Below, piece by piece: positions 7,746 through 58,400 of a DNA stretch of 64,000 nucleotides; position 1 is the stretch's first letter, and each line of letters starts with the position of its first letter. The notes beneath the pieces are model-generated. The model ran no database searches and was not told the DNA's origin. It saw nothing but the letters and a program-made list of their open reading frames with translations. The stretch is from an uncultured Bacteroidales bacterium (GTDB lineage: Bacteria; Bacteroidota; Bacteroidia; Bacteroidales; F082): the NCBI GenBank assembly GCA_947303395.1, contig CAMYYD010000007.1:1-64000 (forward strand), read 5' to 3'. The position numbers and the translations under genes are program-made.

Positions 7746-7755
7746 ATAAAAATAT

Positions 7756-9573: not shown

Positions 9574-9624
9574 GTTCGTTTTCTTTAATTTTTTAAAAAA
9601 TTTCCGACTCTTACAATTGGAGCG

Positions 9625-13736: not shown

Positions 13737-13760
13737 TCATGAATAATAATTACAAATAAT

Positions 13761-24951: not shown

Positions 24952-25014
24952 ATACAATTTTCCATTCCCCACAAAATTAATTTGCAGAAAACAGCTATTT
25001 CCAAATGATTTTTT

Positions 25015-25053
25015 GAGATTTCTCCACTTCGCTCCGCTACGGTCGAAATGACG
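25015..25053. repeat. GTCATTTCGACC-type repeat, inverted copy
   Basis: Reading the minus strand gives GTCATTTCGACCGTAGCGGA continuing through GCGAAGTGGAGAAATCTC. This is the same unit as at 13701 and 22180. It lies in the 530-base stretch without a protein gene between the lipoprotein and hisS. Confidence 0.75.
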
Positions 25054-25083
25054 AAGTGGCTGTGATGATATGACGTAAGGAAA

Positions 25084-39874: not shown

Positions 39875-42214
39875 ATGAATATTATTACGGCCAAAACAAG
39901 GTATATTTTTTTACTGGTTTTCATAATGATGACCAGCGTTTGGGCTTTTGCACAAGGTGATAACTCGGTAAAAGGTTTTGTTTATGAGAAATCGAACGGC
40001 GAACCGATGATGTTTGCCAACGTGTTTCTGAAAGGCACAACGCATGGCGCGACAACCGATATCAACGGATATTTCAGCATCACCCGAATCCCTGACGGCA
40101 CTTACACTATCATGGTGACATCTATCGGTTACGATACCATTTCCGAAAATATCTCATTGAAAGGCAACCAGATAGTAAATAAAAAATTCAGCATTGAGGA
40201 GACTTCAATTCAGCTTGCCGCTGTGAGCATCAGCGCCGATAAGATTGAGGCTAAGACCGAGACAAAAACATCTGTCGTTTATATCACTCCAAAGACTATC
40301 ACCAAAATTCCTGCAGTGGGCGGACAGGCTGACCTTGCCCAGTATCTGCAAGTGATTCCAGGCGTCGTGTTTACTGGCGACCAAGGCGGTCAGCTCTATA
40401 TCCGCGGCGGTTCCCCGATTCAAAATAAGGTGCTTCTCGACGGCATGATCGTCTACAACCCGTTCCACAGCATCGGTCTTTTCTCTGTGTTCGATACCGA
40501 TATCATCAGAAATGCTGAGGTTTACACTGGCGGCTTCGGCGCTGAATACGGCGGAAGAGTGTCTTCAATTATGGATATCACTACCCGCGACGGTAACAAA
40601 AAACGTATCTCAGGAAAGATCGGCGGCTCAACATTCGGTGCCAAGGTGATGGTGGAAGGTCCACTAAAGAAAGCGAAAAACGACAACGACATGACGGTCT
40701 CGTTCCTCGTTTCAGCGAAAAACTCTTATCTCGAGCAGACAAGCCAGACGATTTACAAATCGATTCTGAATAACGAGGTGCTTCCTTATAACTTCCAGGA
40801 TGTTTACGGAAAAGTCTCGTTGAACGCCCCTAACGGCAGTAAAATCAACTTCTTCGGCTTTAACTTCAACGACCAGGTAAATAACTATAAGGCTATTTCC
40901 GACTTCAGCTGGATTTCTTACGGAGGTGGCGCTAACTTCGTGCTTATCCCAGGAAAATCACCGGTTCTCATCGAAGGTAATGTGGCTTATTCAAAATATG
41001 ATGCGAAGCTTTCAGAAACCAACAATCCTGGCCGTTCAAGTTCTATCGACGGCTTCAACGCTGGCTTCACTTTCTCATATTTCCTTGGCAAAAACACTTT
41101 GAAATATGGTGTTGAGCTCCTCGGTTTCAAGACTGTCTTCGATTACACGAAATCAAACGGCATCAATCTGAATCAGACAGAAAATACTACCGAACTTGGC
41201 GCATTTATCAAGTATAAATGGCAACTTGGCAAACTCATCGTTGAACCGAGCATGCGTATCCAGTGGTACGCTTCATTGGCTGAAGTCTCACCAGAGCCTC
41301 GTCTCGCTGTGAAATACAACGTTTGCGAATGGTTCCGCGTGAAAGCCGCTGCAGGTATGTATTCACAGAACCTCATCGCAGCTAACAGCGACCGTGACGT
41401 CGTCAACCTGTTCTACGGATTCCTTTCAGGACAAGACAATATCCCTAAGAAATTCAACGGCAAAGCTGTCAAAACAAAATTGCAGAAAGCAAATCATTAT
41501 ATCATTGGAACAGAATTCGATGTGTATGATAATGTGACACTTAACATCGAGGGTTATTTAAAAGATTTCAAACAGCTGACCAATATGAACCGTAATCAGG
41601 TTTATTCGGAAAGCAATCATCCTGACGATGCCTCTGAGATTGAATGGCGTGACTTCATGATTGAGAACGGTATGGCTTATGGTGTTGATTTCTCAGTGAA
41701 ATATGAGTTTATGAGATGGTATTTCTGGGCGGCATATTCGTTGGCTTGGGTCAACAAAAACTATGAGAACGCGGCAGGTCAGCTTGTCAACTACCGCACT
41801 CACTACGACCGTCGTCATAACATCAATATCATGATGACATACACCGGTGGCGCCCGTAAACAATGGGAATTCAGCGGTCGTTGGAACGTTGGTTCAGGTT
41901 TCCCGTTCACACAAGTCAGCGGATTCTATGAGCATTATCAGTTCGACGATATGGGCATGAGTATCATTGAGAACAATGGCGACCTCGGCATCATCTACGG
42001 TGAACTCAACAGAGGTCAGCTGCCATGGTATCACCGCCTCGACCTCGACGTGAAACGTAAGTTCTGGTTCGGCGAACATACAATACTCGAAGCCGACTTC
42101 AGCGTCACCAATGTCTATAACAGAGATAACATTTTCTATGTCGACATTGTCACAAGCGAAAACATCTATCAGCTGCCGCTGATGCCGAGCTTAGGCTTGA
42201 CCTTAACATTCTAA
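39875..42214 (+). CDS. TonB-dependent receptor with carboxypeptidase-regulatory-like domain
   Basis: A 779-residue OM receptor. It has a signal peptide (about 1-27, ending WAFAQ). The carboxypeptidase-D regulatory-like domain (about 32-115; VKGFVYEKSNGEPMMFANVFL) is followed by the plug domain with LAQYLQVIPGVVF and GQLYIRGGSPIQNKVLLDG. The 22-strand barrel ends with the terminal strand LPLMPSLGLTLTF. No SusD-like partner is adjacent, so it is not a typical SusC. It heads a likely operon with an S9 peptidase (2-bp gap). The ligand is unknown; peptide or metal uptake is possible. Confidence 0.87.
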   Translation: MNIITAKTRYIFLLVFIMMTSVWAFAQGDNSVKGFVYEKSNGEPMMFANVFLKGTTHGATTDINGYFSITRIPDGTYTIMVTSIGYDTISENISLKGNQIVNKKFSIEETSIQLAAVSISADKIEAKTETKTSVVYITPKTITKIPAVGGQADLAQYLQVIPGVVFTGDQGGQLYIRGGSPIQNKVLLDGMIVYNPFHSIGLFSVFDTDIIRNAEVYTGGFGAEYGGRVSSIMDITTRDGNKKRISGKIGGSTFGAKVMVEGPLKKAKNDNDMTVSFLVSAKNSYLEQTSQTIYKSILNNEVLPYNFQDVYGKVSLNAPNGSKINFFGFNFNDQVNNYKAISDFSWISYGGGANFVLIPGKSPVLIEGNVAYSKYDAKLSETNNPGRSSSIDGFNAGFTFSYFLGKNTLKYGVELLGFKTVFDYTKSNGINLNQTENTTELGAFIKYKWQLGKLIVEPSMRIQWYASLAEVSPEPRLAVKYNVCEWFRVKAAAGMYSQNLIAANSDRDVVNLFYGFLSGQDNIPKKFNGKAVKTKLQKANHYIIGTEFDVYDNVTLNIEGYLKDFKQLTNMNRNQVYSESNHPDDASEIEWRDFMIENGMAYGVDFSVKYEFMRWYFWAAYSLAWVNKNYENAAGQLVNYRTHYDRRHNINIMMTYTGGARKQWEFSGRWNVGSGFPFTQVSGFYEHYQFDDMGMSIIENNGDLGIIYGELNRGQLPWYHRLDLDVKRKFWFGEHTILEADFSVTNVYNRDNIFYVDIVTSENIYQLPLMPSLGLTLTF

Positions 42215-42216
42215 AC

Positions 42217-44283
42217 ATGACAAAGCCTTCTTTGAAAAAGATACCACACGAGATGACCATTCACGGTCACACTCGTGTGGATAACTACTATTGGCTTAAC
42301 CAGCGCGAAAATCCTGAGGTCTTGGAATATCTGAAAGCTGAAAACGCTTATCAGGAAGCAATGATGAAACACACTGAACCGCTTCAGGATCAGCTGTTTA
42401 AGGAGATTGTGGCACGCATCAAACAAGATGATATGTCGGTGCCAGTGAAGCACAAAGGATATTGGTATTATTCTCGCTACGAAGAAGGGATGGAATACCC
42501 TTTATATTGCCGCAAACCTGTAGGGGCGAATGATATTCGCCCGAATGAAATAGAAAAAGATAAAGACGAACAAATCCTTCTCAACGGCTACGAGATGTCG
42601 AAAGGCTACACCTTCTTCGACGTCGGCGGCTACAGCATCAGCCCCGATAACTCGTTGATAGCCTATAGCATCGACACAGTGAGCCGCCGCCAGTACAAGA
42701 TTTTTTTCAAAGAGATAGCGACAGGCAAAATGTTCTCGGAAGTGATTGAAAACACTTCGGGAAACATGGTCTGGGCGAACGACAACAAGACGATTTTCTA
42801 TTCAGTAAAAGACGAATCGCTGCGTCCTTGTAGGATTATGCGCCATGAACTCGGTACCGATCCGAAAGATGACGTGGAAGTCTATTTTGAAGATGACACG
42901 ACATTTGTCTCTTTCGTAAGTAAAACAAAATCAGACAAATACATCCTGATTATACTTGAAAGCACTCTGACTTCCGAGATTCGTTTCATCGATGCCGACC
43001 ACCCGAAAGACGAATTTAAAATTGTGCAGAAACGCCAGCACGACCTGCTTTACGGCGTAGGTCATTACGGGGATTATTTCTATATTCTGACCAATGCCGA
43101 CGGAGCGAAGAATTACAAACTGATGCGGACTCCAGTAAATGCTACTGCAAAGGAGAACTGGGAAGAGTTTCTGCCGCATCGTGATGATGTTCTGATTGAG
43201 GATTTCGACCTTTTCGCCGATTTCATGGTTGTGGAAGAGCGCTCGAAAGGTCTTGTAAATCTTAGAGTTATGTCGTGGGATGGCAAGATGGATTATTACA
43301 TCAACTTCGGTGAACCTACTTACACCGTCGAGACCTCGGCGAATCCTGAGTTCAACACGCATCTGTTGCGATATATCTACACCTCAATGACGACGCCAGC
43401 CTCTGTGTATCAATATGATATGAAGGCAAAGACCGTTGAACTTCTGAAACGTCAGGAGATTGTGGGCGGCTTCGAACCGGCTGATTATGTCACTGAAAGA
43501 CTTTACGCGCCTGCAAAAGACGGCGTTCAAGTGCCGATTTCGCTGGTTTATAAGAAAGGATTAGTGAAAAATGGCGATAATCCGTTAGTTTTGTTCGGCT
43601 ACGGTTCATATGGCAACAGCGTCGACGCTTATTTCTCAACGGCACGACTCAGCATGCTCGACCGTGGCTTTGTGTGGGCTATCGCACATATCCGTGGAGG
43701 CGAGGAGATGGGGCGTTGGTGGTATGAAGACGGCAAGCTTCTGAAAAAGAAAAACACGTTTACGGATTTTATTGCTTGCGCTGAATATCTTGTAAAACAA
43801 GGGTTTACGAATAGCAAGAAGATGTTTGCCATGGGTGGAAGCGCCGGCGGACTTCTTGTTGGCGCAGTCGCTAACATGGCTCCGCTGCTGTTTAAAGGCA
43901 TCATCGCACAGGTGCCGTTCGTCGATGTCGTTACAACCATGTTGGATGACTCGATTCCGCTAACTACGGGCGAATACGACGAATGGGGCAATCCGAACGA
44001 GAAAGAGTATTACTATTATATGCTTTCATATTCGCCATACGATAACGTGGAGGCGAAGGAATATCCTGCAATGCTAGTGACTACAGGACTTCACGACAGT
44101 CAAGTGCAGTATTGGGAGCCGGCTAAATGGGTAGCGAAGCTGCGCGAACTCAAGACCGACGACAACCCATTGTACCTGCGCACGGAGATGGACTTCGGTC
44201 ATGGTGGAGCGTCGGGACGCTTCGAGCCTTACCACGAGGTGGCGATGGAATACGCTTTTATGCTTGATTTGCTTGAAAAATGA
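42217..44283 (+). CDS. S9 family prolyl oligopeptidase / oligopeptidase B-like
   Basis: A 688-residue serine peptidase. The N-terminal seven-bladed beta-propeller occupies about 70-410. The C-terminal alpha/beta hydrolase domain has FGYGSYG, RGGEEMGRWWYEDG, nucleophile Ser542 in GGSAGG, acid Asp in LHDSQVQYWEP and catalytic His in FGHGGASGR. The sequence pattern fits PtrB/oligopeptidase B, which cuts after basic residues in short peptides. No signal peptide, so cytoplasmic. A GGGCGAAT-type palindrome encodes VGANDIRP (about 102-109) in frame, between CRKP and EIEKDKDEQ. Its stop overlaps the next start by 4 bp. Confidence 0.88.
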   Translation: MTKPSLKKIPHEMTIHGHTRVDNYYWLNQRENPEVLEYLKAENAYQEAMMKHTEPLQDQLFKEIVARIKQDDMSVPVKHKGYWYYSRYEEGMEYPLYCRKPVGANDIRPNEIEKDKDEQILLNGYEMSKGYTFFDVGGYSISPDNSLIAYSIDTVSRRQYKIFFKEIATGKMFSEVIENTSGNMVWANDNKTIFYSVKDESLRPCRIMRHELGTDPKDDVEVYFEDDTTFVSFVSKTKSDKYILIILESTLTSEIRFIDADHPKDEFKIVQKRQHDLLYGVGHYGDYFYILTNADGAKNYKLMRTPVNATAKENWEEFLPHRDDVLIEDFDLFADFMVVEERSKGLVNLRVMSWDGKMDYYINFGEPTYTVETSANPEFNTHLLRYIYTSMTTPASVYQYDMKAKTVELLKRQEIVGGFEPADYVTERLYAPAKDGVQVPISLVYKKGLVKNGDNPLVLFGYGSYGNSVDAYFSTARLSMLDRGFVWAIAHIRGGEEMGRWWYEDGKLLKKKNTFTDFIACAEYLVKQGFTNSKKMFAMGGSAGGLLVGAVANMAPLLFKGIIAQVPFVDVVTTMLDDSIPLTTGEYDEWGNPNEKEYYYYMLSYSPYDNVEAKEYPAMLVTTGLHDSQVQYWEPAKWVAKLRELKTDDNPLYLRTEMDFGHGGASGRFEPYHEVAMEYAFMLDLLEK
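42520..42542. repeat. GGGCGAAT-type palindrome inside the S9 peptidase gene
   Basis: GTAG is followed by GGGCGAAT-GAT-ATTCGCCC, an 8-bp perfect stem. It encodes VGANDIRP in frame. Confidence 0.8.
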
Positions 44284-45695
44284 TAATATATCAGCTTTTT
44301 CCACGGGTTTACGGCGCGATGCCAACAAAGCGCTGCGGCACTTTCAGCGACATCAATGATGATGAGATTGAAAGGATTAAGTCGCTGAGCATCAGTCATA
44401 TATGGCTCACTGGCGTGATACGTCACTCGGGATGGCGCGACACCAATCCTGCCGTTACCAAAGGAAATGCTGGTTCGCCTTATGCTATCGTCGATTACTA
44501 CGATATCGACCCTGACCTTGCCGACAACGAGGCGAGTAGGATGGAGGAATTTGAAAAAACTGTCGAACGTATTCATTCTCATGGACTTAAGGTAATTATC
44601 GACTTCGTTCCAAACCACCTGGCACGCGAATACAAAGGCGATTTCACTGATGAGAATTTCTATATTTTGCCGAATCAGAAATTCGTTGCCCCGACAGAAA
44701 ATGCCAGCGATTATTATGAGTTTCCGGCAAAAGCCACTGGAAATGACGTTTTCTCGCCTACGCCTACGTTAAACGACTGGTACGACACAGTGAAACTCAA
44801 TTACACCAACCATGATACAGGGCATAAAATGTTGAAAATCATGCAGTTCTGGTGTGGAAAAGGCGTTGATGGCTTCCGTTGCGATATGGCCGAGATGGTG
44901 CCTGTGGAATTTTGGCGTTGGTCAATTGTAGAATTACGTAAATCATTCAATATCATAATGATAGCTGAGATTTACCAACCGAATTTATATCAGAGTTACG
45001 TTGATGCCGGTTTCGATTATCTTTACGATAAGGTTGGACTCTACAATACGTTGGAAAACATCTATCGTTATGGTCAACGTGCCGACACCATTTCTGATGT
45101 ATGGAAAAATCTTAACGGATTGGACGACAATATGTTGCGATTCATGGAAAACCACGACGAGGTGCGACTGGCATCACGGTTTTTCATGCAGAAACCCGAA
45201 AACGCATTTCCGTTTGTTGCCCTGTCCACCCTGATGAACCGCGGCCCATTCATGATTTACAACGGTCAGGAATATGGCGAAAACGCCGCCGATTCCGATA
45301 ATGGAAAAACATCCATATTTGATTACGTTTACCTCCCATCAATGGTCTGTAGGGGCGAATCATCATTCGCCCACGAATCATCATTCGCCCGTGTTTTTGA
45401 TTTTTACAAAAAATTATTGCATTTCCGTGAATCGCATCCAGCCATCCTGCATGGCGCATTTTACGACCTGATGTGGGCGAATCCATGGTACAACAATTTC
45501 GATCCGCAATACGTTTATGCGTTCCTGCGTTATCATGGCGATGATAAATTATTGATTGTCATCAATTTCAACCTGAAAGAGGACAGAAATGTGACGGTGT
45601 CAATTCCATACGACGCCCGCCAATTGGTTGGTGGTTGCAATGAAAAATATGAAATACAATTGTCCCCAGGTGACATTAAAATAATAAAATTATGA
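44280..45695 (+). CDS. GH13 alpha-amylase-family enzyme
   Basis: A 471-residue cytoplasmic GH13 enzyme. Conserved regions are DFVPNH, the nucleophile block DGFRCDMAEM (Asp202), the acid/base block IAEIYQ (Glu about 231) and the FMENHDE block (Asp about 289). It has a short C-terminal beta domain. It degrades or rearranges alpha-glucans; the exact specificity is not predictable. It is coupled by 4-bp overlaps to the S9 peptidase upstream and the branching enzyme downstream. A GGGCGAAT-type palindrome and a partial second copy (45349-45390) encode RGESSFAHESSFAR at about 357-371, within the catalytic barrel after the final conserved block. Confidence 0.88.
   Translation: MIIYQLFPRVYGAMPTKRCGTFSDINDDEIERIKSLSISHIWLTGVIRHSGWRDTNPAVTKGNAGSPYAIVDYYDIDPDLADNEASRMEEFEKTVERIHSHGLKVIIDFVPNHLAREYKGDFTDENFYILPNQKFVAPTENASDYYEFPAKATGNDVFSPTPTLNDWYDTVKLNYTNHDTGHKMLKIMQFWCGKGVDGFRCDMAEMVPVEFWRWSIVELRKSFNIIMIAEIYQPNLYQSYVDAGFDYLYDKVGLYNTLENIYRYGQRADTISDVWKNLNGLDDNMLRFMENHDEVRLASRFFMQKPENAFPFVALSTLMNRGPFMIYNGQEYGENAADSDNGKTSIFDYVYLPSMVCRGESSFAHESSFARVFDFYKKLLHFRESHPAILHGAFYDLMWANPWYNNFDPQYVYAFLRYHGDDKLLIVINFNLKEDRNVTVSIPYDARQLVGGCNEKYEIQLSPGDIKIIKL
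45349..45390. repeat. GGGCGAAT-type palindrome with partial tandem duplication inside the GH13 gene
   Basis: GTAG is followed by GGGCGAAT-CATC-ATTCGCCC (45353-45372), then a second CGAATCATCATTCGCCC (45374-45390). The duplication encodes the repeated peptide ESSFA twice in frame. Confidence 0.8.
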
Positions 45696-47689
45696 AAATC
45701 GTTGATCGCGACAGTTGGTTAAACCCCGTAGCGGATGAAGTACAGAAACGTTTTGAACGTTATCAAAACCGCCTGAAAAGCATTGAAAAACAATATGGTA
45801 GCCTTGGCACCTTCGCCTCGGCGCACCAGTTCTTTGGGCTTCATTACGACCGTATCCGCCGAGGCTGGTGGTACCGCGAATGGGCTCCGGCAGCGCATTA
45901 TTTATCGATTTTCGGCGATTTCAACGGCTGGCAGAGATATGCGAATCCTCTTGAAAATACTGGCAATGGCATCTGGGAGATATTCCTTCCCGACGACGAG
46001 TATAAAAACAAACTCGTGCATGGCAGTCTGCTCAAAGTGATAGTGCAGTCGAGCATTGGCGAGCAGGAACGCCTACCTATATATATTAATAGAGTCGTCC
46101 AGGACGAGAATACAAAAGATTTTTCGGCACAGTTTTGGAATCCTGAGAAGTATTATGTATTTGAAAATCAATCACCTAAACTAAAAGACGAGCCTCTGCT
46201 GATTTACGAGTCGCATGTGGGTATGGCACAGGAAAAAGAAGAGGTTGGAAGCTATAACGAATTCATTACCAATGTCATACCTCGAATAAAAGCCGATGGA
46301 TACAACGCTGTGCAGCTGATGGCAATCGCCGAGCACCCTTATTACGGCTCGTTCGGCTACCATGTTTCGAATTTCTTCGCTGCCAGCTCACGTTTCGGCA
46401 CTCCGGAAGAGTTGAAAAAGCTTGTGGATACTGCTCATGGCATGGGTCTGCTCGTGATTATGGACCTCGTTCATTCGCATACAGTGAAAAACGTGCGTGA
46501 AGGCATAAATCTCTTCGATGGTACTGAATATCAATATCTTAAGCCTGGTATGGAAGGCGTTCATCCTCAATGGGATTCGAAACTTTTCAACTACGGAAAG
46601 ACAGAAACGCTGCAGCTTCTACTTTCAAATGTGCGCTATTGGCTCGATGAATATCATTTCGATGGCTACCGTTTCGATGGTGTGACCTCGATGTTGTATA
46701 AAAATCATGGCATCGACGAGACTTTCGACAGTCCGTGGAAATATTTCGGCGATAATGTTGACAACGACGCTGTCACATATCTGCAACTTGCCAATAAACT
46801 GATTCATGATATTGACAATCAGAATGTTACAATAGCTGAAGACGTAAGCGGAATGCCAGGCATCTGCGCTAAAATTGAAGACGGAGGCATTGGTTTCGAC
46901 TTTCGCCTAGGCATGGGCTTGCCCGATTTCTGGATTAAGGTGCTGAAAGACCAGACCGACGAGCAATGGAACATGCATGAGTTCTTCTTCACCATGACAA
47001 ACCGTTTGCAAGACGTGAAAACCATAGCTTACGCTGAGTCGCATGACCAAGCGCTCGTTGGCGATAAGACATTGGCGTTCAGACTAATGGACAAGGAGAT
47101 GTACACAGCCATGGACAAGGCTTCGCAGAATCTCATCATCGACAGAGGTATCGCTCTGCACAAGATGATAAGGTTTTTTACCATCACCCTCGGAGGCGAT
47201 GCCTGGCTCAACTTCATGGGCAACGAGTTCGGTCATCCCGAGTGGATCGACTTTCCGCGATACGACAACGGCTGGAGCTACAAATACGCAAAACGCCAGT
47301 GGTCGTTGGCTGACGCCGATTATCTGAAATACCATTGGCTGGGCGATTTCGACAAGGCGATGCTCGATTTTGTGAAGAAAAACAAGGTGATGTCGGCGGC
47401 TCCGGCATGGCTTTTGAACGCCGATGAGGACAATAAAACCATCGTTTTCGAGCGAAATAACCTCATTTTCGTGTTCAACTGGGGACAAAAATCATTGCCC
47501 GATTACAAGATTAAGGTGAAGCAAACTGGCGACTACAAAATCATCTTCAGTAGCGATGACAAATCCTTCGGAGGCTTTGAAAACATTGATAAAAGCGCAG
47601 TTTTCCCATCTGAGAAAATAGGCGATGAAATCACCATGAAGATTTATAACGTGGCACGTACGGCAGTAGTTTATAGCCTGAAAAAATGA
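45692..47689 (+). CDS. 1,4-alpha-glucan branching enzyme (GH13, eukaryote-like type)
   Basis: A 665-residue protein. The N-terminal CBM48-like domain (about 40-150; WYREWAPAAHYLSIFGDFNGW) precedes the GH13 barrel with YESHVGMAQEKEEVGSY, AIAEHPYYGSFGYHV, DLVHSH, nucleophile Asp329 in GYRFDGVTSM, acid/base Glu383 in IAEDVSGMPG and YAESHDQALVGDKT. These blocks are those of the GH13_8 group (plant/animal-type branching enzymes), not bacterial GlgB. It introduces alpha-1,6 branches in glycogen-like glucan. It is the last gene of the S9-GH13-GH13 operon. Confidence 0.9.
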   Translation: MKIVDRDSWLNPVADEVQKRFERYQNRLKSIEKQYGSLGTFASAHQFFGLHYDRIRRGWWYREWAPAAHYLSIFGDFNGWQRYANPLENTGNGIWEIFLPDDEYKNKLVHGSLLKVIVQSSIGEQERLPIYINRVVQDENTKDFSAQFWNPEKYYVFENQSPKLKDEPLLIYESHVGMAQEKEEVGSYNEFITNVIPRIKADGYNAVQLMAIAEHPYYGSFGYHVSNFFAASSRFGTPEELKKLVDTAHGMGLLVIMDLVHSHTVKNVREGINLFDGTEYQYLKPGMEGVHPQWDSKLFNYGKTETLQLLLSNVRYWLDEYHFDGYRFDGVTSMLYKNHGIDETFDSPWKYFGDNVDNDAVTYLQLANKLIHDIDNQNVTIAEDVSGMPGICAKIEDGGIGFDFRLGMGLPDFWIKVLKDQTDEQWNMHEFFFTMTNRLQDVKTIAYAESHDQALVGDKTLAFRLMDKEMYTAMDKASQNLIIDRGIALHKMIRFFTITLGGDAWLNFMGNEFGHPEWIDFPRYDNGWSYKYAKRQWSLADADYLKYHWLGDFDKAMLDFVKKNKVMSAAPAWLLNADEDNKTIVFERNNLIFVFNWGQKSLPDYKIKVKQTGDYKIIFSSDDKSFGGFENIDKSAVFPSEKIGDEITMKIYNVARTAVVYSLKK

Positions 47690-47730
47690 GGTTTTTGAAA
47701 AATAATTGTCGAACGTAAAAAAATATTTTC

Positions 47731-47738
47731 TAACTTTG
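47731..47738 (+). promoter_or_regulatory. -7 promoter box for the first OM beta-barrel gene
   Basis: TAACTTTG followed by CT, 33 bases before the ATG at 47772. Confidence 0.55.
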
Positions 47739-47771
47739 CTGATTGGAAAACAAATTTAAAATTATAATATC

Positions 47772-48551
47772 ATGAAAAAATTTACTTTAGTAGCATTTTT
47801 AATGCTTGTTAGCGTTCTCGCTTTCGCACAGAAACCAGTTAGATTTGGTGTTTATGTTGGTGAAGCAACTCCATTTGGCCAGATGGGACAGGGTGATGAA
47901 ATCGCGACCACTGGTGTCAATGCTTTTCAAGGTCTTGAAAACTATGCTTTGTTTTATGAAAACGGTAAGCAGGGATATGCAGGTATCGGCTTTAACGTGG
48001 GCTTTGATGTGACAGTTAATCTTCCAGTTAAAGGTCTTGGCGTATTTGGCGGTGTTGATTTCTTCTATAATACCAATAGCTCATATATTAAAGATGCTTA
48101 TGCTGACTTGGCAGCATATATGGTTGCAATGAATCCTTTCCTTGCAGAGTATTCATACAGCTTACCTAATTTTATGAATATCCCGATTCTTTTCGGTGTG
48201 AACTATCAATATGATTTTAACCATATTGTTGGTCTGTTCTGTGAGGCAGCTGTCGGTCCTAACTTCAGAGTGATTGGAAAATATGAGGATACAGAAAAAT
48301 ATGTAGGTGCACCAGATGATAAGGTCACAGTTAATTACGATTCTGCAACAACATTAGGCTTCAAGATTGGCGCAGGTGTCATGATGTGGAACCGCATGAG
48401 CATCGTTCTTGATTACTATTCACTTGGCAGCGCCAAGATTAAAGGCACCGCAAAAGTGGAAAGTAATAACATAACTGTTGAAAACAAATTTGAAGGCAAA
48501 AATGATATCTCAGCTTCAGAACTCGTAGTAAGAGTAGGTTATCACTTCTAA
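47772..48551 (+). CDS. Outer-membrane beta-barrel protein (porin-like, PF13568-type)
   Basis: A 259-residue protein with a signal peptide (about 1-19, ending AFAQ). Beta strands with aromatic girdles follow (RFGVYVGEATPFGQ, GYAGIGFNVGFDVTVN, GLGVFGGVDFFYN, MNIPILFGVNYQYDF, VGLFCEAAVGPNFRV, GFKIGAGVMMWNRMSIVLDYYSLG), and it ends VVRVGYHF with the terminal Phe typical of OM barrels. Its function is unknown. It is in line with a second barrel gene, but separated from it by a hairpin and a new promoter. Confidence 0.78.
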   Translation: MKKFTLVAFLMLVSVLAFAQKPVRFGVYVGEATPFGQMGQGDEIATTGVNAFQGLENYALFYENGKQGYAGIGFNVGFDVTVNLPVKGLGVFGGVDFFYNTNSSYIKDAYADLAAYMVAMNPFLAEYSYSLPNFMNIPILFGVNYQYDFNHIVGLFCEAAVGPNFRVIGKYEDTEKYVGAPDDKVTVNYDSATTLGFKIGAGVMMWNRMSIVLDYYSLGSAKIKGTAKVESNNITVENKFEGKNDISASELVVRVGYHF

Positions 48552-48614
48552 AATAAATAGTTTTATCGGCAATATCTATTGTTGATAACTATTTTCAATG
48601 TTGATAAAAAAAAG

Positions 48615-48650
48615 TCACCGCAATAGATATATTACTTATCTTTGCGGTGA
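48615..48650 (+). promoter_or_regulatory. Hairpin that contains the promoter of the second OM beta-barrel gene
   Basis: TCACCGCAA (48615-48623) pairs with TTGCGGTGA (48642-48650). The -7 box TATCTTTG (48637-48644) overlaps the right arm. A 94-base AT-rich leader (48651-48744) follows before the ATG. The hairpin could also end the upstream transcript. Confidence 0.55.
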
Positions 48651-48744
48651 TTTATCTTTTATGACGATAAAATTTTAAAAAAGAATAAGAGAGGATGCCG
48701 AAAATCTCATAACAAGAGTAGGCGTAATTAAAATTATTAACAAC

Positions 48745-49422
48745 ATGAAAAAATTATTTATCACAATCGCTTTCGTAGCAGCAGCTATGTTCGCACAGGC
48801 ACAATTCTTTGTAGGTGGTAACCTCGGAATGGGCACAACAAGCAACACTTACAAATTGGAAGGTGGTGGCATTTCTGTCACCCAGGATTTGCCAAAGACA
48901 TTTAATCTTACAATAGCTCCTTCAGTTGGTTTTATGTTCAGCGACAACATGGGCGTCGGTCTTGACCTCGGTTTCGGCTTTGGCAAAACAACTAGAAAAA
49001 ATTATGACGACGAAACAGGTGAATTGGTAAACACAACAACAATTAAGGAAACAACTATCGGTTTCGCTCCTTATTTCCGTTATGTGTTTGCAGAAGTTGA
49101 AAACTTCAAATTCTATGCTGATGCAAGAATTGAATACATGATGACTAAACCGAAAGCTACTATTGAAGGTAGCGGTATGACAATGACAGTCGATGGCAAC
49201 AAGACCACTAAATTCGGCATCGGCGTTGTTCCTGGAATGGCTTACATGCTCACAGACAACATCTCAATGAACTGCGCTCTTAACATTCTTGAGCTCGGTT
49301 TCAGCACAACAAAAGAAAAAGCTGAAAGTGACGGCGTTACAGAAACATATAAGACAAACGAATTTGGTTTCGGTGTCAATGGTGCAACACCTATCACAAT
49401 CGGTTTCTTCTACACATTCTAA
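48745..49422 (+). CDS. Outer-membrane beta-barrel protein, unknown function
   Basis: A 225-residue protein with a signal peptide (about 1-19, ending FAQAQ). Barrel strands include FFVGGNLGMGTTS, NLTIAPSVGFMFSDNMGVGLDLGFGFGK, IGFAPYFRYVF, KFYADARIEYMM and FGIGVVPGMAYML, with terminal strand PITIGFFYTF. It is probably a small OM or adhesion-type barrel; no specific family was recognised. It has its own promoter and terminator. Confidence 0.76.
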   Translation: MKKLFITIAFVAAAMFAQAQFFVGGNLGMGTTSNTYKLEGGGISVTQDLPKTFNLTIAPSVGFMFSDNMGVGLDLGFGFGKTTRKNYDDETGELVNTTTIKETTIGFAPYFRYVFAEVENFKFYADARIEYMMTKPKATIEGSGMTMTVDGNKTTKFGIGVVPGMAYMLTDNISMNCALNILELGFSTTKEKAESDGVTETYKTNEFGFGVNGATPITIGFFYTF

Positions 49423-49440
49423 TCTAAGAAGAAGTTGAAA

Positions 49441-49472
49441 TAAAAAAGCCGGGTCGTATGACTCGGCTTTTT
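49441..49472. terminator. Bidirectional terminator between the barrel and FKBP genes
   Basis: AAAAAAGCCGGGTC-GTAT-GACTCGGCTTTTTT is a 14-bp stem including one G-T pair, with A- and T-runs on the two sides. It serves the convergent genes. Confidence 0.9.
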
Positions 49473-49488
49473 TTGTTGTCAAAAAACC

Positions 49489-50025
49489 TTATTTGCAACT
49501 GTCGCAGCCGCCATCGCAGCTACCTTTGTCGCAGCCGCCATCACAATGACCGCAGCCACCTCCGAGGTCTTCCTCCTTCAGCTCGCGCACGGCAAGAATC
49601 TCGCCCTCGAAATAAAGCGGCACGCCTGCCAATTCATGGTTGAAGTCGATTTCAACAAGCTCGACGCTCACTTTCTTAATCTTACCTGGCATGATGCCAT
49701 TGCCAACATTGAACTGCAGGGTGTTGCCTTCTTTGCAAAGCTCGCTGAGTTTTCCGTTCTCGTCGAGAAACATGTCTTTCTTAGCTGTGAGAACCATATC
49801 CTCGTTGCGCTCGCCGTAACCTTCGGCAGGGGTGAGGTGGAAACCGAATGTGTCGCCTGGTTCGAGACCTTGCAGACATTCCTCAAAACGTGGTAAGAAC
49901 ATTCCGTGACCGAAAATGCCCTCGAGTGGATGTTCCTTGGTGGCCTGGTCGATGACCGCGCCCTCTTTTGTGTCGTTGTGCAACGTGTAAGTCAACGTTA
50001 CAACTGTGTTATTTGCTACTTTCAT
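49489..50025 (-). CDS. SlyD-type FKBP peptidyl-prolyl isomerase with Cys-rich tail
   Basis: A 178-residue protein. The split FKBP domain is shown by VVTLTYTLHND, EGIFGHGMFLPRFEECLQGLEPGD and FHLTPAEGYGERNED. An IF (insert-in-flap) chaperone domain (about 80-135) follows. The C-terminal FDFNHELAGVPL-like block appears here as IDFNHELAGVPLYFEGEILAV. The last about 25 residues form a Gly/Cys-rich tail (GGGCGHCDGGCDKGSCDGGC), likely binding Ni or Zn, as the His/Cys tail of SlyD does. It is a cytoplasmic proline isomerase and chaperone. An octad hairpin lies directly upstream of the start. Confidence 0.9.
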   Translation of the reverse strand: MKVANNTVVTLTYTLHNDTKEGAVIDQATKEHPLEGIFGHGMFLPRFEECLQGLEPGDTFGFHLTPAEGYGERNEDMVLTAKKDMFLDENGKLSELCKEGNTLQFNVGNGIMPGKIKKVSVELVEIDFNHELAGVPLYFEGEILAVRELKEEDLGGGCGHCDGGCDKGSCDGGCDSCK

Positions 50026-50031
50026 CTTTTT

Positions 50032-50105
50032 AAGTTATTCAGTTGTTCAGTTATTCAGTTGTTCAGTTAACTGACTAACTGACCAACTGACTAACTGATT
50101 AACTA
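50032..50105. repeat. Inverted octad-repeat hairpin, copy 2
   Basis: The left arm has four 8-bp units alternating AGTTATTC and AGTTGTTC. The right arm has about four units of AACTGACT type. The arms meet directly at AGTTAACT, giving a hairpin of about 36-nt arms with period 8. It fills the gap between the VWA gene stop (50107) and the FKBP start (50025), both minus strand, the same placement as copy 1 at 1650-1729. Confidence 0.75.
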
Positions 50106-50106
50106 A

Positions 50107-52026
50107 TTAATAAATTCCAAATATTTTTCTTAAAAGCCATTCAATTGTTATCAATGCTAATATGCTGAAAAACAACCATTTAAGGTTTATCAAGTCGTCG
50201 TATCTCGTCTCTTCGCGTGCGATTGATGTGATACGGCTGTCGTCTTCCAAATCTTTTATAATCTGTTGAATATCAGTGATATAATAATGTTTTCCTCCAG
50301 TCTGTGATGCCAACGAGCGCATTCGTTCGATGTTGGCTGTCAAATCCTGCGCCTCGATGCCGATTGATTCGACGGTGAAAGTGCCGTTGGCGTTGTAATC
50401 GACGCCGCCTAACGAGGTATGAGCACGGTAATTGTAAATGCCTTCTGGCAACATGCCTATGTTCAGGTTGTAATTGTTTTCGCCTTTGGTAAAAACATAT
50501 TCATATTGATTATTAATCACAATATGCAAATCCGGATCATTAATCAGTTCCCTGCTAGGATTTCGTAATTCCGCGGTCAACGTGATGTTTTCGGTGTTGA
50601 GGTAGCTGTCTTTGTGGTTGATTGTCAGTTCTTTGTCCTTTTCGGTGAGCAGATATTTCACCGTTTTACTGAAAATCTCGTTGAAGCCGTCGTTGTTTTT
50701 GTGATGGAAATATTCGTAAAGTTTCCAGCGCCAGCAGCCTGTTCCGAAGAAATAGGCGTGTTTGTTGCCATTTGAGTCCGTTGAGAAGGTGAGGAGAGGG
50801 TTCGGCGTCTCGATGTCCATGACGTTCATGAGCAGAGCGTCGTCGTGTCGACCGTTAAACATGATTTCGCAATGCGGCAATGCCAGTGGCGGATACGATT
50901 TCAATTCGTTTTTGATGTCGGATGATATCGTGAACAACCCGAAGGCGTTGTTGTATCGGCCCCTAACGTCAAGGTTGGTGTTTGCCGCACCACGGGTGAT
51001 TTTCACGATGTTATGCGATTCGTTGAATGCATCGAAATCCGACCCGATAATTGACAATATTGGTAGGGGCGAATCATCATTCGCCCGAACAAACGCATTG
51101 TGCATTATCACCAAATCATATTGTAAGGGCAAATCATTATTTGCCCCAACGTTATCATAATAAATAACATCAAATTCAAAATGATCATCCAATGCCGATT
51201 TTATTGCGGCGATATCGGGATGCGGCGCCTTTGCGAGGCAGAGAATGCGATATTTTTTGTCGGTCACGGTGATGAAAACACGGCGTGACGATTGACCGGC
51301 AATAATCTCAATATTTTTAACGCCTTCATTTTCGGAATCGATATTGAAATCAAAGGTTTTCGAGAATCTGTTAGATGTCACAGGCACAGTGACGTTCTCA
51401 ACCTCGTTGCCGTCCATTTTCACGATGACGTTCATTCCTTCGCCTTTGAAATTCTGGGCGTTGGCGGTCACACGCAACGGAAACAGCATGTTTGCCTGCA
51501 CCGTTTTGTTGTATTTCACCTCCTTAATCGTCATCGAAGGATATGCGACAGTGTCGCCGAGGGTGACGGAATATATCGGAAATGGATAACTCTCGATATT
51601 TAATTCCGGGTTAACACCTTGATTTACAATGCCATCGGAAATCAAGACGACAGAACCGACATTTTTTTTGTAATATTGACGAGAGATTGTTGAAAGTGCT
51701 TCGGAAATGTTGGTGTATTGATCACCAAAATTATAATAATCAACCTCGTATTTCTTTTCGAGCGTATTTGCAACAGAATCAACGCTTTGCGGGTATTCAA
51801 CCATCGATTCTGACTTGTCTTGTGCAAAAACGATGATAGGTTTCTCAATTTTATAGCTTTTCTGCTTAATGTAAGGGTTGATGAACAGCATCACCACGGT
51901 GGCTACGACTATGGTTCTGATGGCAAACAACAATGCAGTCAGCGGTTTGCTGTATTTCTTCGAGAAGAGATACAGCAGCGAGGCGTAAACCAAACCGATT
52001 GCCAGTGCCAATAAAATCAACCACAT
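50107..52026 (-). CDS. VWA-domain-like membrane protein
   Basis: A 639-residue protein. Two N-terminal membrane helices (about 2-20 and 28-50) lead into a periplasmic or cytoplasmic VWA-like domain. Its DxSxS metal site is DKSES (about 70-74). LISDGIVNQGVNP, then Ig-like beta domains and a CARF-unrelated middle region, follow. A final membrane helix (LKWLFFSILALITIEWLL) is near the C-terminus. This layout is common in Bacteroidota proteins related to BatA/aerotolerance operons; the function is unknown. Two palindromic elements are read in frame (VRANDDSPLP and VGANNDLPL). The start at 52026 was fixed by the -7 box at 52052-52059. Confidence 0.75.
   Translation of the reverse strand: MWLILLALAIGLVYASLLYLFSKKYSKPLTALLFAIRTIVVATVVMLFINPYIKQKSYKIEKPIIVFAQDKSESMVEYPQSVDSVANTLEKKYEVDYYNFGDQYTNISEALSTISRQYYKKNVGSVVLISDGIVNQGVNPELNIESYPFPIYSVTLGDTVAYPSMTIKEVKYNKTVQANMLFPLRVTANAQNFKGEGMNVIVKMDGNEVENVTVPVTSNRFSKTFDFNIDSENEGVKNIEIIAGQSSRRVFITVTDKKYRILCLAKAPHPDIAAIKSALDDHFEFDVIYYDNVGANNDLPLQYDLVIMHNAFVRANDDSPLPILSIIGSDFDAFNESHNIVKITRGAANTNLDVRGRYNNAFGLFTISSDIKNELKSYPPLALPHCEIMFNGRHDDALLMNVMDIETPNPLLTFSTDSNGNKHAYFFGTGCWRWKLYEYFHHKNNDGFNEIFSKTVKYLLTEKDKELTINHKDSYLNTENITLTAELRNPSRELINDPDLHIVINNQYEYVFTKGENNYNLNIGMLPEGIYNYRAHTSLGGVDYNANGTFTVESIGIEAQDLTANIERMRSLASQTGGKHYYITDIQQIIKDLEDDSRITSIAREETRYDDLINLKWLFFSILALITIEWLLRKIFGIY
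51063..51086. repeat. GGGCGAAT-type palindrome inside the VWA gene, copy a
   Basis: GTAG is followed by GGGCGAAT-CATC-ATTCGCCC. On the coding (minus) strand it encodes RANDDSPL in frame. Confidence 0.8.
51123..51147. repeat. GGGCAAAT-type palindrome inside the VWA gene, copy b
   Basis: GTAA is followed by GGGCAAAT-CATT-ATTTGCCC and a C. On the coding strand it encodes VGANNDLPL in frame, 36 bases from copy a. Confidence 0.78.
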
Positions 52027-52051
52027 ATTTCTGAAAAACGAAAAATTTTTG

Positions 52052-52079
52052 CAAAAATACAAAAAAAATAGTATTTTTG
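52052..52079. promoter_or_regulatory. Divergent -7 boxes for the VWA and GT9 genes
   Basis: TATTTTTG on the minus strand (52052-52059) and TATTTTTG on the plus strand (52072-52079), 12 bases apart. The two genes therefore start from a very short shared regulatory region. Confidence 0.55.
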
Positions 52080-52097
52080 TAGTTTGTTTTGCGTATT

Positions 52098-53084
52098 ATG
52101 AAAAAGTTTCTAGTCATCCAAACCGCATCCATTGGCGATGTTATTCTCGCGACAGCTGTTGCAGAGAAGTTGCATTCGTATTTTCCTGATAGTCAGATAG
52201 ATATGATGATTAAAAAAGGTTACGAAAGTCTTTTTGAGGATCATCCGTATTTAAATAAGGTGTACGCCTGGGATAAGAAAAATCACAAATATGGCAGCCT
52301 GTTATCGATTTGGCGTCAGGTGCGCAAGCAGCGTTACGACTTGATTGTCAACATCCAACGTTATGCCGCTACAGGATTCATCACCGCTTTTGGCAAGGCG
52401 AAGGAGACGGCAGGTTTCAACAAAAACCCGTTCAGTTGCTTCTTCACGCATAAGATTAAGCATGAGATAGGGGTGAAGGGAGTGCATGAGGTCGACAGAA
52501 ATCAGAAGCTGATTGAACATATCACCGACAATAAGGCTGTGCGTCCGGCGTTGTATCCGAGCGAGAAGGTTTTTGAAAAGGTAAAGCATTATAAAACAGA
52601 TACTTACATTTGTGTGGCACCATGTTCATTGTGGTTTACAAAACAGTTTCCGGAGGAGCGTTGGGTGCATTTCCTGAACCTAGTTCCCGATGATTTGAAG
52701 GTGTATCTTCTTGGAGGAAGAGACGACATCGCATATTGCGACCGAATCATCGCTAACGTGCCGAACAAGCAGATCGAGAGCCTTGCGGGTCAGCTAAACC
52801 TCTTGGAATCAGCGGCTTTGATGCGCGACGCGAAGATGAATTTCGTCAACGACTCTTCGCCAATGCACCTCGCCAGCTCGCAAAACGCACCGACAACGGC
52901 AATTTTCTGCTCGACAGTGGCTGATTTCGGCTTCGGTCCGCTTTCGGATGACTCCGTCGTGGTTCAGGAAAACCGTAATCTGAAATGCCGTCCATGCGGA
53001 TTGCACGGCTACAAAAAATGTCCTGAAGGTCATTTCAGATGCGCTGAATATATTGAAATTAAAGAACTTACTGATAGATTATGA
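52098..53084 (+). CDS. Glycosyltransferase family 9 (heptosyltransferase-like)
   Basis: A 328-residue GT-B glycosyltransferase. The N-terminal VIQTASIGDVILATAVAEKL and the C-terminal nucleotide-sugar region (LLGGRDDIAYCD, LAGQLNLLESAALMRDAKMNFVNDSSPMHLASSQNAPTTAIF) match GT9/ADP-heptose:LPS heptosyltransferases. It probably adds a sugar to the lipopolysaccharide core or a related surface glycan at the cytoplasmic membrane face. The start is ATG 52098 (an upstream TTG in frame is rejected). Its stop overlaps the tsaC-like start by 4 bp. Confidence 0.88.
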   Translation: MKKFLVIQTASIGDVILATAVAEKLHSYFPDSQIDMMIKKGYESLFEDHPYLNKVYAWDKKNHKYGSLLSIWRQVRKQRYDLIVNIQRYAATGFITAFGKAKETAGFNKNPFSCFFTHKIKHEIGVKGVHEVDRNQKLIEHITDNKAVRPALYPSEKVFEKVKHYKTDTYICVAPCSLWFTKQFPEERWVHFLNLVPDDLKVYLLGGRDDIAYCDRIIANVPNKQIESLAGQLNLLESAALMRDAKMNFVNDSSPMHLASSQNAPTTAIFCSTVADFGFGPLSDDSVVVQENRNLKCRPCGLHGYKKCPEGHFRCAEYIEIKELTDRL

Positions 53085-55426: not shown

Positions 55427-58400
55427 ATGAAAAAAAATCAACTCAGAAAACTCGCAATGGCATTGGTAGTCATTATGTTTGGCTTCCAGGCTTTTGCTCA
55501 AGGTCGTATTGACCTTGCACCTAAGGGTGTGAAAGCTCCAAAGGCACAGAACGTGACTATGAGCGGTTTCTCAGCAACATTCTCATTCAACAGCATTGAG
55601 AGTGAGCTCGTTTCTACAGAGAAAGGTGATTTCTCAATCATCAGCATGGACAACTCGGTTTTCGGTGGTAATATCGGTGAGCCTGAAGTTCCAGTAAATC
55701 GTGAACTTATTGCTGTTCCATTTGGCGCAAATCCAGTTGTGACAGTTAAGAATTACACGGTTAAGGAGTACAATCTCGCTGACTATGGTATCGAGAGAAT
55801 CTATCCTCACCAGGCTTCAGTTAGCAAGAGCGAGAAAGATCCTAAGTTCGTCTACAGCGAGGCAGCTTATGCAGCTAAAGGTTTCAACGAGGAACTCCCA
55901 CTCGCAATGGTAACAGTTATGGGTCAGATGCGTGGTATCCAGATTGGTGCTTTGCAGCTCAACGCAGTGAGATACAATGCTTCAGCAAACACAATCCGTG
56001 TTTACAACGACATCGAGGTTGAAGTGACATTTGAAAACGCTGACCTTGAACTCACAGAGAAGACATTGGTCAACACTTACAGCCCTTACTTCAGAACAGT
56101 TTACGCTACATTGTTCAACGACAGAGCTATCCAGGATATTTATGATGAGCATCCAGACCTCTGGGCAGTGCCAGTAAGAGTTTTGGTTGTCGCTAACCGT
56201 ATGTTCGAAGCAGCTATGGAACCATGGATCACATGGAAGACCGAAAAAGGTTTCTACATGGATGTCAACTACACAGACGTTATCGGTACATCAGCATCAG
56301 CTATCAAGACTTTCATCACCAACAAGTATAATGAAGGTCTTGCAGCAGGTCAGACCCCAACATTTGTCATCATCATTGGTGACACCGCACAGGTCCCGGC
56401 TTCACAGACAGGTGCTTCATCACAGAAGGTAACCGACCTTTACTACTATGCAGTGGCAGGCGGTGCTAACGACTACTTCGGCGATATGTTCCACAGCCGT
56501 TTCACATGCGAAAATGTTGCTGAATTTGAAGCAGCACGTGACAAAGGTATGATGTATGAGCAGTACACAATGCCAGATCCATCATATCTCGACAATGTTC
56601 TTCTTATTGCTGGTTGGGATTCATCATGGAACCCAAGAATCGGTAAGCCAACCATCCAGTATGCAACAAACTACTACTACAACTCAACACACGGCTTTGC
56701 TAATGTTTACGAGTTCTTACAGACTCCTTACAACAACCCATACGCAAGCTTGAACACAGGTGTCAACTTTGTGAACTACACCGCTCACGGTGGTGAGACA
56801 AGCTGGTCAGACCCATCATTCTCAGTGAGCAACGCTAACTCATTGACAAACACAGACAAGTACTTCCTCGCAATGGGTAACTGCTGCTTGGCTGCTAACT
56901 GGGGTTATTCAACCAAGTGCTTAGGTGAAGCTATGATTACAGCTCCTAACAAAGGTGCTTACGCATACATCGGCTCATGCCCAAGTTCATACTGGTATGA
57001 GGACTACTACTTTGGAGTAGGTTGCACAAACGTCATGAACCAGATGCCTCCGATTGAGCAGACAACAATGGGTGTTTATGATGCAACATTCCGCGATGAC
57101 TTCAACAGCGTTTCAGCTATTCCATTCGTTGGTAACGTCGCTGTTGCTTACGGTCACGCTAACGGTTATCAGGGTAGTGTGAGCGATCAGTATTACTGGG
57201 AGTCATACCACGTCCTCGGTGATGGTACTATCTGCCCATTCCACACAAATCCTATCGAGAACACAGTTTCACACATGCCAACACTTCCTATCGGAATGGA
57301 CTTCTACACAGTTTCAGCTGATCCAGGTTCATACGTTGGTATTTCAAAGGACGGCGTCCTCTACGGCGCTGGCGAAATCGGTGAAGAAGGCACAGCCGAC
57401 ATCCCGATCACTCCTGTTACATCAGGCGGTAACGTCAAGATCGTTGTGACACATCCACAGCGTCAGCCTTACGTAGCTGAAGTTCCAGCTGCAGCAATGA
57501 CAGGCGCTTACGTAGCAGTTGACTCATATGAATTGAATGCAGATCAGGCTAACTATGGCGAGACAATCGACATGGACATCACTTTGAAGAACGTCGGTAC
57601 ATTGGCATCAGGCGCTATCACAGCTACACTCACAACAGATTGCGAATATGTCAACATTTTGAATGGTAACGGTTCAACAGCAGCTTTGGATCCAGAAGCT
57701 ATGGCAACAATTGAAGGCTATCAGTTTATTGTTGCAGAAAACGTTCCTGACAAGACAAAGGCACAGTTTGTCCTTGAAGTGACAGACGGCACAGACACAT
57801 GGAATGCTAACATCAACATTACACTCCACGCTCCAGTCGTTGTTTTCGAAGCTATCGCAAAGACAAGCAACACAGTGACACTCTCATTCAAGAACACAGG
57901 TACAGCTCCATTCTATGGCGGTGAACTTTCACTTACAAGCTGCTCACCAGACTTGGTATTTGACCCAGAGACTGTCACTTCACAAGACGCAATCGCAGGT
58001 GGTGAGACACTCGAATTGACTGCAAACTATTCAGTTAACCAAAGCGTTGAACCAGGTACAACATTCGAGGTGGCATATAGCTTCGCAACAGGTCAATTCC
58101 TCCTTGAAGACATCTTCGTAGTATCATACGGTACTATCATGGAAGACTTCGAATCAGGTGTGTTTGGTCCAGAATGGACATTGAGTTCAACCAACCCATG
58201 GGAGATCACTGCTGGTGGTAGAGGTAACTACTGCGCTAAGTCAAATAACAACGGACAGCACAGCTCATCAGGTTACATGCAGTTGTCAGTCAACGTGTTG
58301 GCAGCAGGTGAACTTTCATTCTGGTACAAAGTTTCATCAGAAAACAACTACGATAAGCTCCACTTCTACATGGACGGTCAGGAGAAGGGTGTTTGGTCAG

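Follow-up and report, generated by a model that had tools for sequence, protein, structure and literature searches.

In-frame GTAG-footed palindromic repeats in protein genes of an uncultured Bacteroidales bacterium and other repeats in the same loops of its relatives

Protein genes with in-frame palindromes

The window analyzed here is a 64,000-nucleotide stretch (positions 1 to 64,000 of contig CAMYYD010000007.1, assembly GCA_947303395.1) from an uncultured Bacteroidales bacterium of the GTDB lineage F082. Three of its protein genes carry a total of four in-frame copies of a short palindromic repeat, designated family A, at loops that hold other repeats in related species. The first gene (42217 to 44283, plus strand) encodes an oligopeptidase B-like serine peptidase of family S9, identified by a profile match and an alignment of homologues. 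Ser542, Asp627, and His662 are invariant in this 50-sequence alignment and, from knowledge of the family, are taken to be the catalytic triad. The second gene (44280 to 45695, plus strand) belongs to the GH13 alpha-amylase family by a profile match. The third is an open reading frame (ORF) for a 651-amino-acid protein (50107 to 52062, minus strand), which the initial annotation had assigned to the von Willebrand factor type A (VWA) proteins. That name came from a recognized motif alone, and no Pfam or NCBIfam family matches the protein at an E value of ≤0.001. With the insert columns excluded, ratios of nonsynonymous to synonymous substitution rates (dN/dS) between the window and four relatives are 0.03 to 0.06 for the S9 peptidase and 0.05 to 0.08 for the GH13 enzyme, and those between the window and three relatives are 0.09 to 0.12 for the 651-residue protein. 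The three genes are under purifying selection.

The copy in the S9 gene (42520 to 42546, plus strand; GTAG-GGGCGAATGATATTCGCCC-GAAT) is read as V-G-A-N-D-I-R-P-N-E. The GH13 gene contains a copy at 45349 to 45372 (plus strand), read at codon offset 1 as C-R-G-E-S-S-F-A, followed by an 18-nucleotide partial tandem duplication of the palindrome (45373 to 45390, plus strand), read as H-E-S-S-F-A; the open frame of the GH13 copy reads CRGESSFAHESSFAR. The 651-residue protein has two copies, both on the minus strand: one at 51063 to 51090 (site VWA2; V-R-A-N-D-D-S-P-L-P) and a GGGCAAAT variant at 51123 to 51150 (site VWA1; V-G-A-N-N-D-L-P-L-Q). The initial annotation was thus right that palindromes are read through in open frames in three genes (VGANDIRP, CRGESSFAHESSFAR, VRANDDSPLP, and VGANNDLPLQ), that the GH13 copy is partly duplicated, and that more than one frame and orientation is used: the window has two codon offsets and, judging by the GTAG foot, both orientations.

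The arm sequence GGGCGAAT occurs 10 times in the window, compared with 1.88 occurrences expected and a maximum of 5 in 100 shuffles. Seven occurrences are parts of palindromic copies, namely both arms at 42524 to 42542, 45353 to 45372, and 51067 to 51086 and the duplicated arm at 45383 to 45390; the copy at 51127 to 51146 has the GGGCAAAT variant instead. The three lone half-sites (16389, 43968, and 45475) are taken as probable chance matches, and the one at 43968 falls in codons of the conserved TTGEYDEWGNP segment of oligopeptidase B. Another variant copy, GTAAGGGCGAAACATTTTTCGCCCCTAC, lies at 7756 to 7783, with no strand assigned, between the minus-strand ORFs 5686-7770 and 7807-9627, and overlaps the listed start of the former. 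An Rfam search of positions 41000 to 53000 gave no match to the palindromes.

Family A in the host genome

The family A unit is 28 bp long and has the form GTAG-GGGCRAATNATNATTYGCCC-CTAC. In the genome of the window (G000; 2.42 Mb, 92% complete, 40 contigs), the unit is matched 15 times by a strict pattern and 28 times by a relaxed one; the reversed pattern has no match. Because two of the 28 (on contigs C33 and C39) have identical flanks, they probably represent a single place at two contig ends, which leaves about 27 copies. Of the 28 copies, 20 have an exact GTAG foot, which in 5 of them is present on both sides, and 8 have none. Seventeen copies lie outside plausible genes. Eight copies lie shortly after an ORF whose final sense codon ends 10 to 15 nucleotides before the palindrome core (L001, L016, L017, L021, L025, L026, L031, and L032; here and below, L and G numbers denote loci and genomes); the distance is identical in five of these.

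The 11 copies inside genes are found in the S9 peptidase, the GH13 enzyme, the 651-residue protein (two copies), AnmK, a DUF4175-like protein, the short-chain fatty acid transporter AtoE, a relative of PhzF, a DUF2490 protein, and the ORFs at L004 and L020. Two further ORF placements, at L006 and L025, look spurious and were not counted. Reading starts at codon offset 0 in eight of the 11 copies, which are of the V-G-A-N type, and at offset 1 in two copies of the R-G-E-S-S-F-A type; the PhzF copy uses offset 2. Two of the three consensus frames can be open: GTA-GGG-GCG-AAT-NAT-NAT-TCG-CCC-CTA always is, and TGT-AGG-GGC-GAA-TNA-TNA-TTC-GCC is if the N positions give no stop codon.

Insertion relative to orthologues

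A search of 60 genomes of the genus gave an S9 match in 58, with 34 (the window's own genome included) at ≥66% identity, and 30 loci were read. A scan of named genomes yielded 68 loci, 67 of which had an S9 frame above the threshold; 49 of these were aligned with the window sequence to give the 50-sequence set. The close relatives are metagenome-assembled genomes of Bacteroidales, mostly from ruminant and horse guts, and include “Candidatus Limimorpha caballi” (L107); no literature naming Limimorpha in connection with repeats was found. The loop segment is 29 to 49 residues long in the window and 12 close relatives and 20 or 21 residues long in 35 of the 37 aligned homologues outside the close clade, some of these 35 (e.g., L109, probably from G009) being members of the same GTDB genus if that genus is taken broadly. 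Two horse relatives (L105 and L107) have a 29-residue loop without a repeat. The initial annotation had named the same peptide at the same site in unrelated genera as a sign of ancestral protein sequence; the peptide is found in none of the 37 out-of-clade homologues.

With 27 residues, the GH13 loop of the window is longer than that of any of the 22 other orthologues for which there are loop data (21 residues or fewer), and its 18-nucleotide duplication is absent in the other 14 of the 15 loops compared. At all seven sites tested (in six genes), some relatives lack a repeat. As far as alignment of orthologues goes, these comparisons show the palindromes to be insertions, which bears out the claim of the initial annotation that the repeats add peptide segments to conserved proteins.

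Different repeats in the same loops

The initial annotation did not note that these loops are occupied by other repeats in sister species. At all seven tested sites, which were picked because the window's genome has family A there and are biased to that extent, at least one relative has a different repeat in the same loop. Two further families are involved: family B, a palindrome of the form GTAGAGACG...CGTCTCTAC, and family C, which appears in the S9 loop as GTCATTTCGAGCG...GAGAAATCT or in the GTCATTCCG form and is read as VISSEVEKS or VIPSVAEES. Among 23 other taxa, the S9 loop has family C in 12 (an inverted pair in four of them), family A in one (L094), and no recognized repeat in ten. The GH13 loop, with data for 22 other taxa, has family A in six, B-type repeats in three (the assignment of L139 being uncertain), and none recognized in the rest. 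In the 651-residue protein (18 other taxa; 2 of 14 regions absent where contigs end), family A is found at sites 1 and 2 in the window and L092, and family B is found in L101 at site 1 and in six relatives at site 2, one copy being eroded.

The three other proteins show the same pattern; for these, the link of genomes to loci is inferential. AnmK carries family A in the window's genome. Of 19 relatives, four contain B-like palindromes, which are of three kinds; the loop is short in eight close relatives and in six that are more distant, and it has a different sequence in L182. In AtoE (13 taxa), two relatives have A-like and five have B-type repeats with similar flanks; the loop pattern missed the AtoE copy of the window's own genome, which had already been found as family A in the genome-wide search. 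Among 17 relatives, the DUF4175-like protein has family B in two, a short loop in nine, and an intermediate loop without a recognized repeat in six.

Outside these loops, the same genes contain 0 family A, 23 family B, and 6 family C matches in 182,682 bases, and 20 of the 23 B matches are found in four further loops: AnmK site 2, sites 3 and 4 of the 651-residue protein, and DUF4175 site 2. Site 3 of the 651-residue protein has three cores, and site 4 has four clear cores and an eroded one. At DUF4175 site 2, three genomes are 21 nucleotides longer than the other 15. The AnmK of the host genome has a B-type palindrome in the second loop, near VKTCHGASLQ (L003), in common with G045, G031, and G034; the same core is present in G053, and other relatives have other cores or none. 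In L192 (AtoE of G011), the B palindrome is partly tandem-duplicated (VETHGHASNENAS), like the GH13 copy of the window.

The count was extended to 713 kb in 34 loci that surround the three genes of the window, a sample biased toward these genes. Here, 12 of 13 family A, 21 of 46 family B, and 23 of 40 family C matches lie inside called ORFs; shuffled-letter controls gave 0, 3, and 0 matches, respectively. Two of the three B control matches lie in ORFs, so that family B labels with 3 or 4 mismatches are uncertain, that of the L139 GH13 loop above all. Two double labels were ignored: a 4-mismatch B beside the A copy in the window's S9 loop and a B on the A copy in AnmK.

Loop states differ even between sister species. 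In a tree built from 1,420 aligned residues of the proteins encoded by these three genes, with loop states assigned by pattern, the sisters L096 and L129 have family B versus a short loop in both GH13 and AnmK, and L090 and L091 have a short loop versus an eroded family A copy in GH13. Recombination between species may add to this patchy distribution. It seems that one and the same protein loop is rewritten by repeats again and again. In the literature searched, no account was found of recurrent refilling of the same loops by different subtypes of repeats across a bacterial genus, and this refilling, in unrelated host proteins, is what is new here.

Conserved pairing of the palindrome arms

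Base pairing between the arms was assessed in 34 ungapped 28-nucleotide units from eight orthologous sites. Pairing was found in 244 of 272 arm cells, versus 50 to 108 when the partner was slid, and of 202 left-arm differences between orthologous copies, 149 were compensated in the other arm, versus 0 to 36 with slid partners. The units were chosen and hand-aligned without gaps and were picked as A- or B-like, which favors pairing; kinship inflates the counts, and the slid controls have the same kinship. Left out were the 27-nucleotide S9 copies, the window genome's AtoE copy, all family C copies, site 3 of the 651-residue protein, DUF4175 site 2, and near-identical copies (e.g., GH13 of L091, L094, L098, and L104). 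In this, the copies behave as palindromes and not as protein sequence; selection on protein would not predict such compensation.

Relation to known palindromic elements

Family A appears to fit the repetitive extragenic palindromic (REP) elements with two GTAG feet that accompany TnpA-REP transposases, or REP-associated tyrosine transposases (RAYTs), of subclass 2.4. This subclass, the same as RAYT group 4, is described as abundant in Cyanobacteria and Bacteroidetes, with double-foot REPs, which carry a GT[AG]G foot at one end and the complementary foot at the other, and with a signature of NH[IFV]H, WQ, and YIxNNP (PMC6006769). REPs inserted in its transposase genes keep the frame (PMC6006769). 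The statement in the initial annotation that such in-frame insertion had not been described for Bacteroidota of this kind was therefore too strong, as intragenic REPs in other genes are also in print (PMC3733652). The relatives studied here share with the subclass 2.4 accounts the GTAG feet and RAYT-like genes that are flanked by or hold palindromes. The case here differs in that the host genes are unrelated to transposition, that the loops are refilled, and that no transposase was detected in the window's genome.

GTAG REPs in general are described as 20- to 40-bp palindromes near the 3' ends of genes, some of them inside ORFs with encoded residues (PMC3733652). Family A has several of their traits, being a dispersed 28-bp palindrome with a GTAG foot and most copies outside genes. 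The groups for which that survey lists GTAG REPs are Proteobacteria, Cyanobacteria, Chloroflexi, and the Planctomycetes-Verrucomicrobia-Chlamydiae group, not Bacteroidetes (PMC3733652). It notes that recB of Xanthomonas campestris and X. oryzae has different REPs at about the same site (PMC3733652), the one shared site of this kind that it reports, compared with the seven of seven tested sites here. The foot of the CGTC REPs is not seen: the feet are GTAG and CTAC, and family B has CGTC only inside an arm (CGTCTCTAC). Literature searches with the strings GTAGGGGCGAAT, GTAGAGACGCG, GGGCGAATCATCATTCGCCC, and ATTCGCCCCTAC gave no match, and the listed matches to shorter repeat strings looked like chance.

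The initial annotation had likened the repeats to the Rickettsia palindromic elements (RPEs). These are 105 to 146 bp long, are read in frame in unrelated proteins, and are tolerated (PMC2229807). The likeness in outcome stands, but the 28-bp unit and the GTAG foot set family A apart, and the RPE account in PMC2229807, in the parts that bear on this, has neither a GTAG foot nor a RAYT partner. The analogy is closer than size suggests, because two short elements of R. conorii, RPE-4 and RPE-6, have been equated with CGTC REPs, a sister superfamily of the GTAG REPs (PMC3733652). Membership in the RPEs proper is extremely unlikely, given the difference in size and foot and the RAYT-like partners in relatives.

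RAYT-like genes in related genomes

The RAYT model NF047646 has a match at an E value of ≤0.001 in 12 of 21 hand-chosen genomes. A search with PF01797 finds Y1 transposase genes in just 4 of the 14 genomes of the genus; a lack of RAYTs in the genus, which this would suggest, is contradicted by NF047646. Eleven of the 14 loci matched are RAYT-like (two each in G118 and G015 and one each in G113, G195, G211, G005, G078, G011, and G038). The remaining three, namely the short partial matches L235 and L238 and the IS200-like gene L236, have no palindrome and were not counted among the 11. All 11 aligned RAYT-like proteins have WQ, an HuH motif of the form NH.H or DH.H, and a Y motif of YIxNNP, YIxNNV, or a near form.

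GTAG palindromes are found inside or near all 11 RAYT-like loci, in none of the 12 Y1 loci found with PF01797, and in 21 of 57 AnmK, AtoE, and DUF4175 loci (0.12 versus 0.73 per kb). In G078, the RAYT-like gene (L233) itself holds a family A copy, read as FVGANYHSPE. The G038 genome has palindromes (GTAGAGACGGATGAAAATCCGTCTC) around its RAYT-like gene that are very similar to its own AnmK insert. Family A is abundant in G078 (30 forward and 37 reverse matches) and often forms inverted pairs about 42 nucleotides apart (e.g., C14:143632-143697), an arrangement like that of REP doublets forming hairpins (REPINs).

A two-footed pattern, GTAGRGRCG(7-12)CGYCYCTAC, was found in 119 of 395 evenly drawn Bacteroidota genomes (65 of 171 genera), with 31 matches in G000 and a maximum of 42 per genome; its reversed control had one match each in six genomes. 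Of 100 genomes searched with the stricter 24-base family A pattern, 15 contain it, among them that of the window.

The genome of the window has one PF01797 gene, for an IS200-like Y1 transposase. As a candidate RAYT, it was rejected: it passes NF033573 with 55.7 bits (cut-off, 55) and fails NF047646 with 28.5 bits (cut-off, 80). No family A-type palindrome is near this gene, which lies between two copies of a 72-nucleotide direct repeat (L024, 1378 to 1449 and 2018 to 2089). Its motif, YIKRQKEHH, resembles YIKNQKEHH, the form given in print for subclass 1.2.

Origin and turnover of the inserts

The palindromes are likely to be nonautonomous GTAG-footed REPs, linked to subclass 2.4 transposases, which insert, survive in tolerant loops, and are followed there by other subtypes. 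REPs of about 28 bp with two feet would insert across the genome, and most insertions inside genes would presumably be purged. The survivors would be those in loops that tolerate a change of length, with a net change divisible by three, and would be read as protein; two openable consensus frames would help them to survive as coding sequence. In different species, the same permissive loops would be colonized, eroded, and recolonized by REP subtypes and by the unrelated family C. The dispersed copies, the short loops of orthologues, the open frames in genes under purifying selection, the several subtypes per loop, the conserved self-complementarity, and the GTAG palindromes in or beside RAYT-like genes of related genomes are all observed. 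Movement of the palindromes by RAYTs, retention of the peptides in the mature proteins, and a nearly neutral effect of the inserts are inferred.

Several observations weigh against it, and the mode of entry, the lack of a RAYT in the window's genome, and retention at the protein level are its weakest points. A search of that genome, which is 92% complete, with NF047646 found no RAYT. Of the 14 genus genomes, 6 match the model at an E value of ≤0.001, and only 4 of these matches (in G015, G005, G011, and G038) were judged RAYT-like, the other 2 being IS200-like genes or fragments. Only 1 of the 21 genomes exceeds the 80-bit cut-off, with 92.8 bits at L227, outside the genus; the other listed matches score 20.8 to 65.3 bits. 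The RAYT-like loci L227 and L234 have GTAG hairpins of a sequence other than that of A or B, and L233, whose gene holds family A, comes from outside the genus, from a different family within the order. Nor does family C belong to the GTAG REPs. Compared with short loops, the net gain in length is between +3 and +42 nucleotides and seldom equals the length of the element, so that the inserts do not look like clean insertions; comparison by eye with short loops revealed no target-site duplication. Because no RAYT was found in the window's genome and few were found in the genus, the copies in this genome are best seen as probable orphans of a lost or unassembled RAYT.

A possible, though not a probable, alternative is exchange in place, in which ectopic gene conversion or template switching swaps the core between REPs that share outer arms. 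At the GH13, VWA2, and AtoE sites, the A and B repeats have, by eye, common boundaries, partly common flanks, and differing cores, with compensated arms, and net gains below the element size (e.g., +9 at AnmK) fit a replacement of host bases. Exchange does not account for filled versus short loops in sister species (L096 and L129 in GH13 and AnmK, L090 and L091 in GH13), and different subtypes at the second AnmK site have boundaries about four codons apart, pointing to separate insertions. It is unlikely that homologous recombination, by moving filled and empty alleles between species, makes the turnover appear too fast. The patchy distribution on the tree and the presence of the window's 27-nucleotide S9 copy in L094, whose sister L098 has family C in that loop, are in its favor, but it leaves unexplained the many cores per site, such as the four clear cores and an eroded one at site 4 of the 651-residue protein.

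The repeated filling of the same loops in several proteins could also indicate peptides selected for function in loops maintained as variable regions. This is quite improbable, as the subtypes encode unrelated peptides in unrelated proteins and orthologues with short loops persist in sister species. Ancestral protein sequence with a chance palindrome can be practically dismissed: the three half-sites do look like chance, and repeat-free loops can be long (29 residues in the S9 peptidase of the horse relatives; GH13 of L058 and L060), but there are 28 dispersed matches versus none for the reversed pattern, and the S9 segment is short in 35 of 37 out-of-clade homologues and has the peptide in none.

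The preferred explanation, insertion and recolonization by REPs, can be extended to a more doubtful one in which the loops act as docking sites that exchange REPs like cassettes across species. An element whose home is the frame of its own transposase would be suited to translation, so that host proteins would be repeatedly edited. We know of no process that replaces one palindrome with another in place inside a translated loop.

The enzymes of these related uncultured gut Bacteroidales offer a natural series of short, filled, and eroded insert sites in the same loops, which makes the entry of REPs into genes, and selfish DNA as a source of protein segments, open to testing. In these proteins, VGANxxSPL, VETRHGTSL, and VISSEVEKS are repeat-derived and should not be taken for conserved motifs.

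Other features of the window

Family C (GTCATTTCGACCG...GAGAAATCTC) has three copies in the window, at 13697 to 13739, 22168 to 22217, and 25014 to 25056. The second (GTCATTTCGACCG...GAGAAATCT, plus strand) lies in frame in a 399-residue ORF, where positions 22180 to 22216 are read as VISTAVKRSGEIS. Arrays of 8-nucleotide units (AGTTGTTC / AACTGACT) are found at 1634 to 1738 and 50018 to 50121; their inverted halves could form a long hairpin. A match to the cis-regulatory DUF805b RNA (Rfam ID RF02914; 38.3 bits) is found at 48688 to 48724. The ORFs 55427-59041 and 59162-62719, each encoding about 1,200 residues, share stretches of about 71% DNA identity and probably represent a tandem duplication.

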